Shown: one piece after another, positions 17,349 to 20,970 of the stretch | How the letters are laid out: each line of letters starts with the position of its first letter | Position numbering within the stretch: position 1 is the first letter of the stretch | IMG/VR virus record: IMGVR_UViG_3300006037_000047 | Coordinates: 1 to 20,970 of that record | Direction: 5' to 3' (one strand) | Length of the DNA: 20,970 nucleotides | Source: a virus | Translations under genes and position numbers: made by a program | Notes under the pieces: model-generated | What the model saw: only the letters and a program-made list of their open reading frames with translations | Database searches by the model: none | What the model was told of the DNA's origin: nothing

Positions 17349-18335
17349 ATGTCTGAAAAAAATATCTATCAACGCATGATAGAGGTCCAAAAGATAGTTC
17401 AATCAGTCGAAAAAAATTCAGTAGTCAAAATGTTCGAAAACGACAAGGGATATAAAGCGGTAACCCATGATGATGTTGCTAGGGCACTTCATTTGCCATT
17501 AGCAGAGTGCGGGGTTGTTATGGTCCCCGACGTTGTCAGTTATGCTTTCACAAGCTTTGAAAAGCCAAACTATCAAGGAAAATTGGTCACGTGGCACCGT
17601 GCAGACATTGAAATTTCTGTTAAATGGATCAATGCCGATAAGCCAGAGGATTTTTTTGCATCGAAAAGTGCTGCATTTGCTATAGATACATCAGACAAAT
17701 CATTTGCAAAAGCATATTCACTGGCTTTAAAGATTGCTCTTTTAAAAGTCCATTTGCTTGAATCACGTGATGATGAGGAGTCAAGACCATTCGAAAACGA
17801 AAACGGCATCGATTCAAAAGGAAATTCGACAACTAAAAACCAGAATAAACCAACACAAAAAAAGCAAACTCAACCCGAGCCACAACAAAAAACTGTCTTG
17901 GATCCAAAAGATTTCATCATGCCATTTGGAAAAACAACTAAGGGAAAAAAATTAGGATCACTTTCACTTGAGACTCTAAACGATGTTTTGCAATACACCG
18001 ATGGGGAGCTCAAAAAAGAAAATTCAACTGCACAACTTAACAATTATTTAGTTTTAAAAGCTAATTTGTTAAAAGTTATTTCAACTTTCAATCTAGAAAA
18101 AAAAGATGAACAAAAGCCAGATGTCGGGGACTCAATAATTGAAATCGAATTTGATACCGTCGAAAATGAATTGGTCAAAGGTAAGACTTTAAAAATGATC
18201 CCCGAAAAAACTCTTTTGGCCATGATCCAAGAGCTCGATAAAAAGATGCAGTCAGTCCCCCCGCCTAAAAACTTAACAGCTTTATTTTCGATAAATTCGA
18301 AAATCAAAGAATTTCTGAAATCTTGCGGGGTGTGA
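17349..18335 (+). CDS. erf: ERF-family single-strand annealing protein with ExoX-C-like tail
   Basis: A 328-residue protein. Residues 1-150 match the ERF family: IYQRMIEVQKIVQSVEK, YKAVTHDDVARALHLPLAECGVVMVPDV (35-62), VKWINADKPEDFF (91-103), and SAAFAIDTSDKSFAKAYSLALKIALLKVHLLES (107-139) ending in an acidic DDEESRPFE. Such proteins anneal complementary strands during phage recombination and end-joining. Residues 151-185 are a Gln/Lys/Pro linker. Residues 189-220 (FIMPFGKTTKGKKLGSLSLETLNDVLQYTDG) match the small domain found at the end of exodeoxyribonuclease X, thought to bind DNA. A helical tail follows. It heads the early operon. Confidence 0.85.
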   Translation: MSEKNIYQRMIEVQKIVQSVEKNSVVKMFENDKGYKAVTHDDVARALHLPLAECGVVMVPDVVSYAFTSFEKPNYQGKLVTWHRADIEISVKWINADKPEDFFASKSAAFAIDTSDKSFAKAYSLALKIALLKVHLLESRDDEESRPFENENGIDSKGNSTTKNQNKPTQKKQTQPEPQQKTVLDPKDFIMPFGKTTKGKKLGSLSLETLNDVLQYTDGELKKENSTAQLNNYLVLKANLLKVISTFNLEKKDEQKPDVGDSIIEIEFDTVENELVKGKTLKMIPEKTLLAMIQELDKKMQSVPPPKNLTALFSINSKIKEFLKSCGV

Positions 18336-18588: not shown

Positions 18589-18866
18589 TGAAAACAGCAC
18601 TAACAAAAGAAATAATAATCAGTCGTATTCAAAGTTTAGCTGTTGATCTTTTTAATTTCGCTATTCAATTTATTGAAAATTACAATAATGAAAATAATGA
18701 ACTAAAAGCACAGAATAAGGTTTTGATTGAAGCTTTGGAGAAAATTAAAGAATTTAAAACTTTAGATAATGGCGAGAAGTATAACTCATATGTTGACGGA
18801 TGGATCGGTGTTGCCGAGTTTGCTAAAAAAACAATCGAGCAAGTTAAAAAGATGAGGGGTGAGTGA
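18585..18866 (+). CDS. Helical coiled-coil early protein
   Basis: A 93-residue protein: an N-terminal helix ([28 protein letters not shown]), an Asn/Glu heptad segment ([21 protein letters not shown]) and a tail with a conserved-looking [17 protein letters not shown]. Such helical proteins are frequent in phage early regions and are of unknown role. Start ATG 18585 or the adjacent ATG 18588; both overlap the previous stop. Confidence 0.65.
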
Positions 18867-19465
18867 TGAACGACGATTTAAAAATAAGACTTGAACAACA
18901 TAAAATGTGGCTTTTAGATAACAATACTGGCCAAAGATTTATTGCCAAATCAGGCGAAAACCTACGCTCTGCGAACCTACGCTCTGCGAACCTAAGCTAT
19001 GCGGACCTAAGCTATGCGAACCTAAGCTCTGCGGACCTACGCTCTGCGAACCTAAGCTCTGCGGACCTACGCTATGCGGACCTAAGCTATGCGGACCTAC
19101 GCTATGCGGACCTAAGCTATGCGAACCTAAGCTATGCGAACCTACGCTCTGCGAACCTAAGCTATGCGAACCTACGCTCTGCGAACCTACGCTATGCGGA
19201 CCTAAGCTATGCGGACCTACGCTATGCGGACCTAAGCTCTGTCTATGGGTTTAAATTCAAACCTTTGCAAGTTGTGAACACAAAATATTTTATAACTATT
19301 TTGGATGATCAAGTTTTGTGGGGCTGCAAAAAAATGACATTTGATGAGGTTAAGTCTTTTAAATTTTCTGATTGTACTGACCTAACATGGGATGAAAACG
19401 AATTTAAACTAAATAAAAAAATCATAACTGAAATGATTAGATATTATAGAGTAAAAAATGGATGA
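18863..19465 (+). CDS. Pentapeptide-repeat protein
   Basis: A 200-residue protein. Residues 1-32 are a helical cap; 33-127 are about 19 pentapeptides of the form [N/D]-L-[R/S]-[S/Y]-A, which fold as a right-handed quadrilateral beta-helix; 128-200 are a globular tail ([19 protein letters not shown], then [16 protein letters not shown]) with a Gly-Cys turn found on other pentapeptide proteins. Some relatives (Qnr, MfpA) mimic DNA and protect gyrase; this repeat lacks strong negative charge, so that role is only a possibility. The DNA repeats are nearly perfect. It overlaps both neighbours. Confidence 0.9.
18961..19230 (+). repeat. 18 tandem 15-bp units, CCTA(C/A)GCT(C/A)TGCG(A/G)A
   Basis: Eighteen complete units in register, followed by a diverged nineteenth. 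Twelve of 15 bases never change; three bases are each one of two states, and all changes alter an amino acid (R/S, S/Y, N/D). Only five of eight combinations occur: ccA five times, aaG three, aaA four, acG two, caG four. Units 8-10 and 16-18 are identical triplets, a sign of block duplication. Confidence 0.95.
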
Positions 19466-19661
19466 AAATGGCAGATTGGTTTTGACAATAAAATATGGTG
19501 AGCCACTAAAAATTGGTGATGCTGAAATCATTGTCAAAGAACATAGTGGTCAACAAATTAAGGTTATTGTTACAGCACCGAAATCAGTTAAAATTTTTAG
19601 ATCAAAAATTGTTGAACGCATATTGAAACAAAATAAGGTTTTGGCTTATGAAAAAAAATAA
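19458..19661 (+). CDS. csrA: CsrA/RsmA-like RNA-binding translational regulator
   Basis: A 67-residue protein. From residue 6, [20 protein letters not shown], then [26 protein letters not shown], follow E. coli CsrA in order: L-x-L-T, G-E-x-L-x-I-G-D, G-x-Q-V-[RK], A-P-K-x-V and the R-x-x-I end. The RNA-contacting Leu4 and Arg44 equivalents are present; Arg6 is replaced by Ile, and one residue is missing in the second strand. CsrA dimers bind GGA motifs at ribosome sites and repress or protect messages. Five extra residues precede the usual start, and a Lys-rich tail follows. It is read by coupling from the overlapping gene upstream. Confidence 0.8.
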
Positions 19662-20159: not shown

Positions 20160-20441
20160 TTGGAACATCAATTAAAAATTTGGCCTCAATACTATAGCCG
20201 AGTCAAAGACGGATCCAAGACGTTCGAAATACGCGAAAATGATCGAGGATTTCAACAAGGTGACTCGGTTGTTTTGCGTGAATATGATCCAGATCCGATC
20301 AATGCGACATCATCATCGCCAAAAGGCTTTACTGGATCACCTGACTTGAAATTTAAAATTGGTTATGTTCACGTTTTAGACTCAAGCCGCGTTGTTTTCA
20401 GTCTTTTATCAATTGGAAAATCTAAATCTAACAAGTCTTGA
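20160..20441 (+). CDS. DUF3850/ASCH-like (PUA-fold) protein
   Basis: A 93-residue protein starting at TTG 20160, with AGGGG 7-8 nt upstream. The pattern H-x-L-K-I-W-P-x-Y-Y-x-x-V-x-D-G-x-K-T-F-E-I-R, then ENDRGFQQGDSVVLREYDP and a final KIGYVHVLDSSRVVFSLLSI, is that of DUF3850, an ASCH-related small domain common in phages and thought to bind RNA or modified nucleotides. It stands alone between the early terminator and terminase, so it may be expressed with either group. Confidence 0.75.
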   Translation: MEHQLKIWPQYYSRVKDGSKTFEIRENDRGFQQGDSVVLREYDPDPINATSSSPKGFTGSPDLKFKIGYVHVLDSSRVVFSLLSIGKSKSNKS

Positions 20442-20464: not shown

Positions 20465-20970
20465 ATGGGATCACGTGGACCACAGCCATCAGATAAAATA
20501 AATTGGGATGAGTTTGACAAACTCGTTTCATATCAATGCACCCAAAAGGAAATTGCAGCTTTTTTCAATGTCAGCGTTGACACGCTTGAACGCGCTTGTT
20601 TAAGAGATCGAAACGAAAAACTTGCGGATATTTGGGACAAAAGAACTTTCCTTGGAAAAGTTAGACTCCGAAAAGCCCAATTCGAAATCGCTGAATCAAA
20701 AGGCTCTGGTGCTGCAACAATGGCCATATTTTTAGGCAAGGTTATTTTAAAACAAAATGATAAGCCTGAATTAGATCCACCGCACCCGCCAAACGGTACG
20801 AGTATCGAACCAAAAAAAGTCTCATTCGAAAAGTTTTGTGAAAAGGCGGGTTATCCAGAGCCATTCGAAAAGCAATGCGAAATGCGGGCCTTTGGATTGG
20901 ATGAAACGGATCCAAGACTTTTGTTAGGTTCAAGGGGTTATGGCAAGACAGACTATGTCACTATTTTGGG
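20465..20970 (+). CDS. terL: TerS-like domain fused to terminase large subunit (N-terminal part; continues at base 1)
   Basis: ATG 20465 follows an in-frame TAA and opens a frame that crosses the circular join and ends at 1114 (509 residues in all). Residues 1-100 resemble stand-alone small-terminase proteins: MGSRGPQPSDKINWDEFDKL, then a helix-turn-helix CTQKEIAAFFNVSVDTLERAC, then FLGKVRLRKAQFEIAESKG and GAATMAIFLGKVIL. Residues 118-139 (VSFEKFCEKAGYPEPFEKQC) lead into the ATPase. Normally the small subunit recognises the packaging site and is a separate ring-forming protein. The ribosome site (GGTGATAGG) is weak. Confidence 0.85.
   Translation, partial: MGSRGPQPSDKINWDEFDKLVSYQCTQKEIAAFFNVSVDTLERACLRDRNEKLADIWDKRTFLGKVRLRKAQFEIAESKGSGAATMAIFLGKVILKQNDKPELDPPHPPNGTSIEPKKVSFEKFCEKAGYPEPFEKQCEMRAFGLDETDPRLLLGSRGYGKTDYVTIL
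20881..20970. repeat. Terminal direct repeat (circular overlap), right copy
   Basis: Identical to bases 1-90. Bases 20882 onward are in the same terminase frame as bases 2 onward, so removal of one copy restores an uninterrupted gene. Confidence 0.95.

Follow-up and report, generated by a model that had tools for sequence, protein, structure and literature searches.

Unit turnover in phage pentapeptide-repeat genes suggests a rapidly remodelled binding surface

Diversity-generating retroelements let phages change a binding surface whose scaffold stays constant. The pentapeptide-repeat proteins of family PF00805 (NP275-NP276, HetL, MfpA and Qnr) have a fold and an A(D/N)LXX motif in common. 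We analyzed a gene of this kind in the viral record IMGVR_UViG_3300006037_000047 of IMG/VR, using positions 1 to 20,970 of that record (20,970 nucleotides, hereafter the window). The pentapeptide-repeat gene is on the plus strand (18866..19465) and encodes 199 amino acids from the ATG at 18866 in the list of open reading frames (ORFs). Its protein shares the fold and motif of the proteins named above and belongs to PF00805 (E 7.9e-28, 96.1 bits against a cut-off of 20.2). The array in this gene and those like it resemble tolA of Escherichia coli, for which in-frame variation of unit number inside the gene is reported (PMC3477136), but in the phage arrays the units themselves also differ, at a small number of exposed residues in a rigid solenoid. 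They are unlike diversity-generating retroelements in that no reverse transcriptase was found (0 of 44 records) and unit turnover would take the place of adenine mutagenesis.

The most similar described genes are orf232 of the P22-like phages L, ST64T and ST104. They resemble the window gene in having an EEHKxW stretch at the N-terminus, a pentapeptide array and a C-terminal domain with a GC motif, and also in their nearly uniform silent codons and varying unit number. They differ in belonging to another phage group and in their alphabet, which, counted from the central Leu (i) of the unit, is R/C/Y at i+1 and G/D at i+2. The EEHKxW stretch resembles the N-terminal segment of the window protein (18866..18955, plus strand; LEQHKMWL...GQRF...G), which is kept in orthologs (alignment A1). 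Phages L (sequenced with Illumina and PacBio) and ST64T are >99.9% identical and differ at two sites, one of them a 15-bp orf232 unit, treated there as one indel among others (PMC8022706). Similarly, the Caulobacter phages RW and GB2A, assembled with HGAP4, differ, apart from two base differences and two added Cs, by a deletion of 375 bp within a pentapeptide gene (PMC11053796); by our own arithmetic, 375 is 25 x 15. Both are single published differences, and a general account was not found in the literature searched, a coverage that leaves most subscription journals outside.

In the window, Tandem Repeats Finder reported a period-15 array at 18959-19241 with 18.7 copies. In codon register, all 18 units between 18971 and 19240 (plus strand) match GCGRACCTAMGCTMT exactly (0 expected, 100 shuffles), that is GCG-RAC-CTA-MGC-TMT encoding A[N/D]L[R/S][S/Y]. 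They are preceded by a divergent 19th unit, ENLRS, with Glu replacing Ala (18956..18970, plus strand), and followed by the non-repeat C-terminal domain (19241..19465, plus strand), which is kept in orthologs. The three two-state sites (hereafter toggles) are divided A9/G9 (N/D), A10/C8 (S/R) and A11/C7 (Y/S) among the 18 units. Every difference alters a residue, and silent differences number zero. An earlier note on this DNA, made from the sequence alone, had described just these 18 units with three residue-changing toggles and no silent change, and our unit-by-unit count agrees; its coordinates, 18961-19230, delimit the same array in another phase. All eight toggle combinations are present, which is true of only 3 of 114 comparable arrays, and the toggles are unlinked within units (Fisher p 1.0, 0.33 and 0.63). 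Inverted repeats were absent from the array. The array codons are poor ones for this phage: in the remaining listed window ORFs, 13% of Ala residues are encoded by GCG and 8% of Leu residues by CTA, the log10 P of the array codons is -67.1 against -47.0 (sd 2.0) for random draws, and the GC content is 55.6% in the array and 39.0% in the window. Codon preference was thus rejected as the source of the silent uniformity, which is instead explained by common descent of the units.

The toggles correspond to residues predicted to be exposed in the fold. In the published description, residues 1 and 3 of a pentapeptide unit face inward and residues 2, 4 and 5 outward (PMC10886550), and the toggles of A[N/D]L[R/S][S/Y] occupy exactly positions 2, 4 and 5. 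This is consistent with the claim of the earlier note that the variable positions face out, as is an AlphaFold2 model built from five orthologs (mean predicted local distance difference test score 72.2, block means 85-95 over residues 31-100). The model has one bridge residue per five residues, and beta strands and a helix (177-198) in the C-terminal domain. Among solved structures it most resembles those of pentapeptide proteins (2j8k and the synthetic beta1 series), and 4yei_A superposes at 0.3 A over 96 columns. The window protein is therefore predicted to form a quadrilateral beta-helix, a statement about features of the model other than handedness.

The two-state array pattern is a recurrent class in phages. 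A protein search of viral contigs, whose query patterns included array peptides and whose sample leans to the motif, gave 79 loci, and a five-unit pattern search, which required the unit pattern but not toggle variation, gave at least 119 stretches. When a single genome was searched for each of 84,980 bacterial and archaeal species, the same five-unit pattern was detected in nine stretches. Heterozygosity was calculated for 114 of 134 viral arrays, counting strict units and no other substitutions. To be used, an array needed at least eight strict units, and eight loci were excluded because their flanks were shared or their arrays cut (L178, L040, L180, L087, L112, L133, L177 and L116). Within arrays, the three toggles had values of 0.388, 0.396 and 0.339, compared with 0.004-0.039 for the five silent positions (averages 0.374 and 0.017, a ratio of about 22). 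Between arrays the silent positions do differ (0.33-0.68). Silent variation was absent from 85 of the 114 arrays, all three toggles varied in 85, and both were true of 62.

As a control, we took the 30 best loci from 100 bacterial genomes, 23 of which had at least 10 units, and compared them with the protein-search viral loci (74 of 79 with at least 10 units). Mean codon heterozygosity was 0.51 for Ala and 0.56 for Leu in the bacterial arrays, none of the 23 being uniform in both, against 0.061 and 0.063 in the viral arrays, where 43 of 74 were uniform in both. The mixture of D and N was alike in the two sets (0.417 and 0.439). Silent uniformity, and not the surface mixture, thus marks the phage arrays; the mixture is common to the fold family at large.

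Unit gain and loss were seen among relatives. Pairwise comparison of nine Acinetobacter phages (36 pairs) showed identical flanks in every pair, over 2,500 bp downstream of the array and 147-200 bp upstream of it, and yet six distinct arrays of 21 (four phages), 23, 23, 26, 28 and 35 units lie between these flanks. The arrays draw on six unit types, and none of their 219 units carries a silent variant. When the six arrays were aligned unit by unit in 15 pairs, 315 units matched, 122 were gaps (in 43 blocks) and 14 were replaced. In eight P22-like Salmonella phages, orf232 has 3, 8, 14, 14, 15, 21, 21 and 26 units between flanks that are 98.25-100% identical upstream (400 bp) and 100% identical downstream (247-250 bp); in P22 itself only 39% of the orf232 query was covered. 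Five Salmonella records from a plasmid collection have identical termini and 21, 26, 27, 26 and 26 units. One of them, CP149355, has 12 consecutive units in common with CP148786 and 7 with ST104 (shuffled maxima 7 and 4), while CP148786 and ST104 share 1. The CP149355 array may thus be a mosaic; exchange between arrays would leave such a pattern, the alternative being an ancestor with both parts. CP148786 and CP149355 (L315 and L316) are circular records of ~4.9 kb listed as plasmids, with many similar records, and in both the P22-like pentapeptide gene adjoins an HNH endonuclease gene. Among IMG/VR contigs, one group has 36, 12, 18 and 18 units with available flanks (up to 300 bp per side) 99.7-100% identical, and one pair has 12 and 5 units, an exact seven-unit difference, with flanks 99.9-100% identical. 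Another pair, L087 and L115, has 3 mismatches over 9.7 kb, and two of its array units differ, with Y or H replacing N at the D/N position. L087, L112 and L133 are cut by contig ends and were excluded as length comparisons. Escherichia coli genomes were searched for a long-read test, and the matches fell short of the array.

The earlier note had proposed a comparison of relatives, and had stated that fixed arrays or many silent changes would speak against it. Relatives that are near-identical to one another instead vary in unit number and order without silent changes. Its description of the variation as binary holds for the window gene and many others, but the orthologs also use other or larger alphabets. 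Relatives of the C-terminal domain are encoded at eight viral loci, where orthologs have similar ends and different arrays, some cut by contig ends. These include arrays of 17 units with codons as in the window (L250), 15 units with Y/F (L251), 14 units with a three-state R/G/W toggle at i+2 and fixed Ser at i+1 (L252), at least 20 and exactly 22 units with F/S (L253 and L254), at least 9 units (L255) and 5 units (L256). At a further locus (L014:4941-5711), an array of this type is attached to another C-terminal domain, DUF5758 (PF19062, E 1.1e-34), so the array there behaves like a cassette between unrelated ends.

The explanation we favor, with a probability of about 0.6, combines unit turnover, selection on exposed residues and binding of a host factor early in infection. 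The 15-bp units would duplicate, delete and probably exchange between arrays, through either slippage or homologous recombination and at a higher rate than that of point mutation. Such turnover would keep the core and silent positions uniform within one phage, each lineage fixing its own silent codons, while selection on the protein would keep both states at the exposed D/N, R/S and Y/S residues. Each rearrangement would then leave the protein folded, as a rigid four-sided beta-helix, while altering its length and its pattern of charge and aromatic residues. We infer that selection keeps both toggle states for surface diversity and that arrays are exchanged between alleles, and the same turnover would also run in the window phage. 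Turnover explains the uniform silent codons, and the case for selection lies in the failure of neutral turnover to give the toggle contrast; three variable sites in one gene would be insufficient for it, so the relatives carry that argument.

The protein would act early in infection and bind a host factor that varies, e.g., a defence or regulatory protein, with the surface following its partner. The orf232 gene of P22-like phages sits between ral (antirestriction) and gene 17 (superinfection exclusion). This location and the change of arrays amid constant flanks lead us to lean to a host-facing binder over a folding role, and by location and analogy an early, host-facing binding role is our best guess. 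As for the enzyme, the earlier note had suggested that an upstream annealing recombinase drives the variation. An ERF-family single-strand annealing protein is indeed encoded upstream (17349..18335, plus strand; PF04404 E 4.8e-9, phrog_155 E 3.1e-14), but 29 of 43 array-bearing viral records have neither ERF nor RecT (ERF in 4, RecT above the cut-off in 10, both in none), in a count that covers these two families, with other annealing families outside it, and records that may be fragments. This suggests that a phage recombinase is not essential, and slippage and general recombination could suffice in principle.

Several observations weigh against this explanation. The toggles could help folding or solubility instead of binding. 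The evidence for unit-number variation comes from relatives and not from the population of the window phage itself, whose array has no significant duplication footprint of its own (longest repeat 54 bp, p 0.078). Eight of the nine Acinetobacter phages (Acba_23 is outside the list) were sequenced with Illumina 2x250, and repeats are described as having fragmented the assemblies (PMC9866556). The IMG/VR contigs are metagenome assemblies, and single arrays in either set may be wrong. All nine matching PHROGs are listed as function unknown, and a PADLOC search returned no match. Finally, of 16 records whose terminase is related, just 1 contained any pentapeptide match, indicating an accessory gene that comes and goes in the window lineage.

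If the arrays were unstable minisatellites evolving in concert, the toggles would be recent neutral mutations spread by turnover. Unit gain and loss are real and the silent uniformity is as turnover predicts, but equal heterozygosity would then be expected at toggles and silent positions. We simulated neutral duplication and deletion with breakpoints in any phase (342 arrays at each of three rates, in sets of 114), and the toggle-to-silent ratio was 0.58-0.97, far from the ratio observed. Moreover, three of the five silent positions are transition-only, and mutation bias runs the wrong way for the two A/C toggles, making neutral evolution improbable. A stronger competitor, though still a doubtful one, is that the toggles help a long solenoid to fold, stay soluble or balance its charge, turnover being a by-product of repeat DNA. 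The bacterial D/N mixture, which comes without silent uniformity, favors it, as do a mean net charge near zero (-0.10 per unit over all arrays, from residue counts) and a correlation between D and R fractions across arrays (rho 0.44), of which base composition is a possible cause. Avoidance of like residues on one face would lower similarity at lag 4, but pooled similarity across arrays was raised at lag 4 (Z 3.58) and lag 2 (Z 2.60), with -1.16 at lag 1, and solubility does not need an array that changes between otherwise identical flanks. Since two- or four-unit duplications would give the same lag signal, we make no claim of face-specific patterning. The lag-1 values were also negative in a second, uncorrected table, partly through small-sample bias, and in the window array alone no lag was significant (lag 2 p 0.096, lag 4 p 0.93).

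A protein acting on host gyrase as a DNA mimic of the MfpA or Qnr sort, with the array as a spacer only, would have the same fold, and the window protein has weak matches to both families and, like dimers of this class, a C-terminal helix. The matches, however, reach 35.7 of 360 bits (MfpA) and 28.3 of 240 bits (Qnr), far under the NCBIfam cut-offs. The array charge in the window is -0.06 per unit by residue counts, rather than strongly acidic, and 3-26 units in one gene fit poorly with one fixed DNA-like target; we consider this role unlikely. Assembly artefacts might be thought to create the differences among relatives, given the short-read Acinetobacter genomes with their repeat-related fragmentation and the tendency of metagenome contigs to collapse repeats. 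Nevertheless, L, which was sequenced on two platforms, differs from ST64T by one unit, RW and GB2A were assembled with HGAP4, four Acinetobacter isolates have one same array, and the Salmonella plasmid records differ too, so an artefact is very improbable. HGAP4 is a long-read assembler. Adenine-targeted mutagenesis by a diversity-generating retroelement would account for the A on the coding strand in all three toggles. It was rejected as extremely improbable on the base pattern (the second A of RAY is constant in the window, each site has two bases only, and the six Acinetobacter arrays draw on one set of six unit types) and because reverse transcriptase (PF00078) was found in 0 of 44 records, the window included.

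The window itself carries the same 90 bases at both ends (1-90 and 20881-20970), so it probably represents a genome of about 20,880 bases (~20.9 kb) that is circular or has terminal redundancy. The pentapeptide gene overlaps the stop of the preceding ORF and could alternatively start at GTG 18863. Its end is overlapped by the start of a gene for a CsrA-like protein (19458..19661, plus strand; PF02599 E 2.5e-11, under the NCBIfam cut-off), which is treated here as a neighbor in this 21-kb phage and not as a part of the array mechanism. A DUF3850 (PF12961) protein with a weak ASCH-domain match is encoded at 20160-20441, and a Pfam scan of ten further window ORFs gave no match. A scan for promoters and terminators was uninformative, with 14 promoter and 5 terminator sites where shuffled sequence gave 11.4 and 3.6.

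Differences in the number and order of array units amid an otherwise identical gene suggest a rapidly remodelled surface, for which binding is proposed by analogy. More tentatively, and with some doubt, many phages might have an enzyme-free diversity generator, a solenoid binder in which a few pre-made unit types are reshuffled by slippage and recombination during co-infection, and hosts that differ in their target proteins would select from the repertoire of arrays in the population. If the favored explanation is true, the array should change during passage and the array type should track the host. Phages would then have a widespread means, independent of reverse transcriptase, of changing a binding surface on an unchanged fold, and a purpose would be suggested for an abundant phage gene family in which every matching PHROG is annotated as function unknown.
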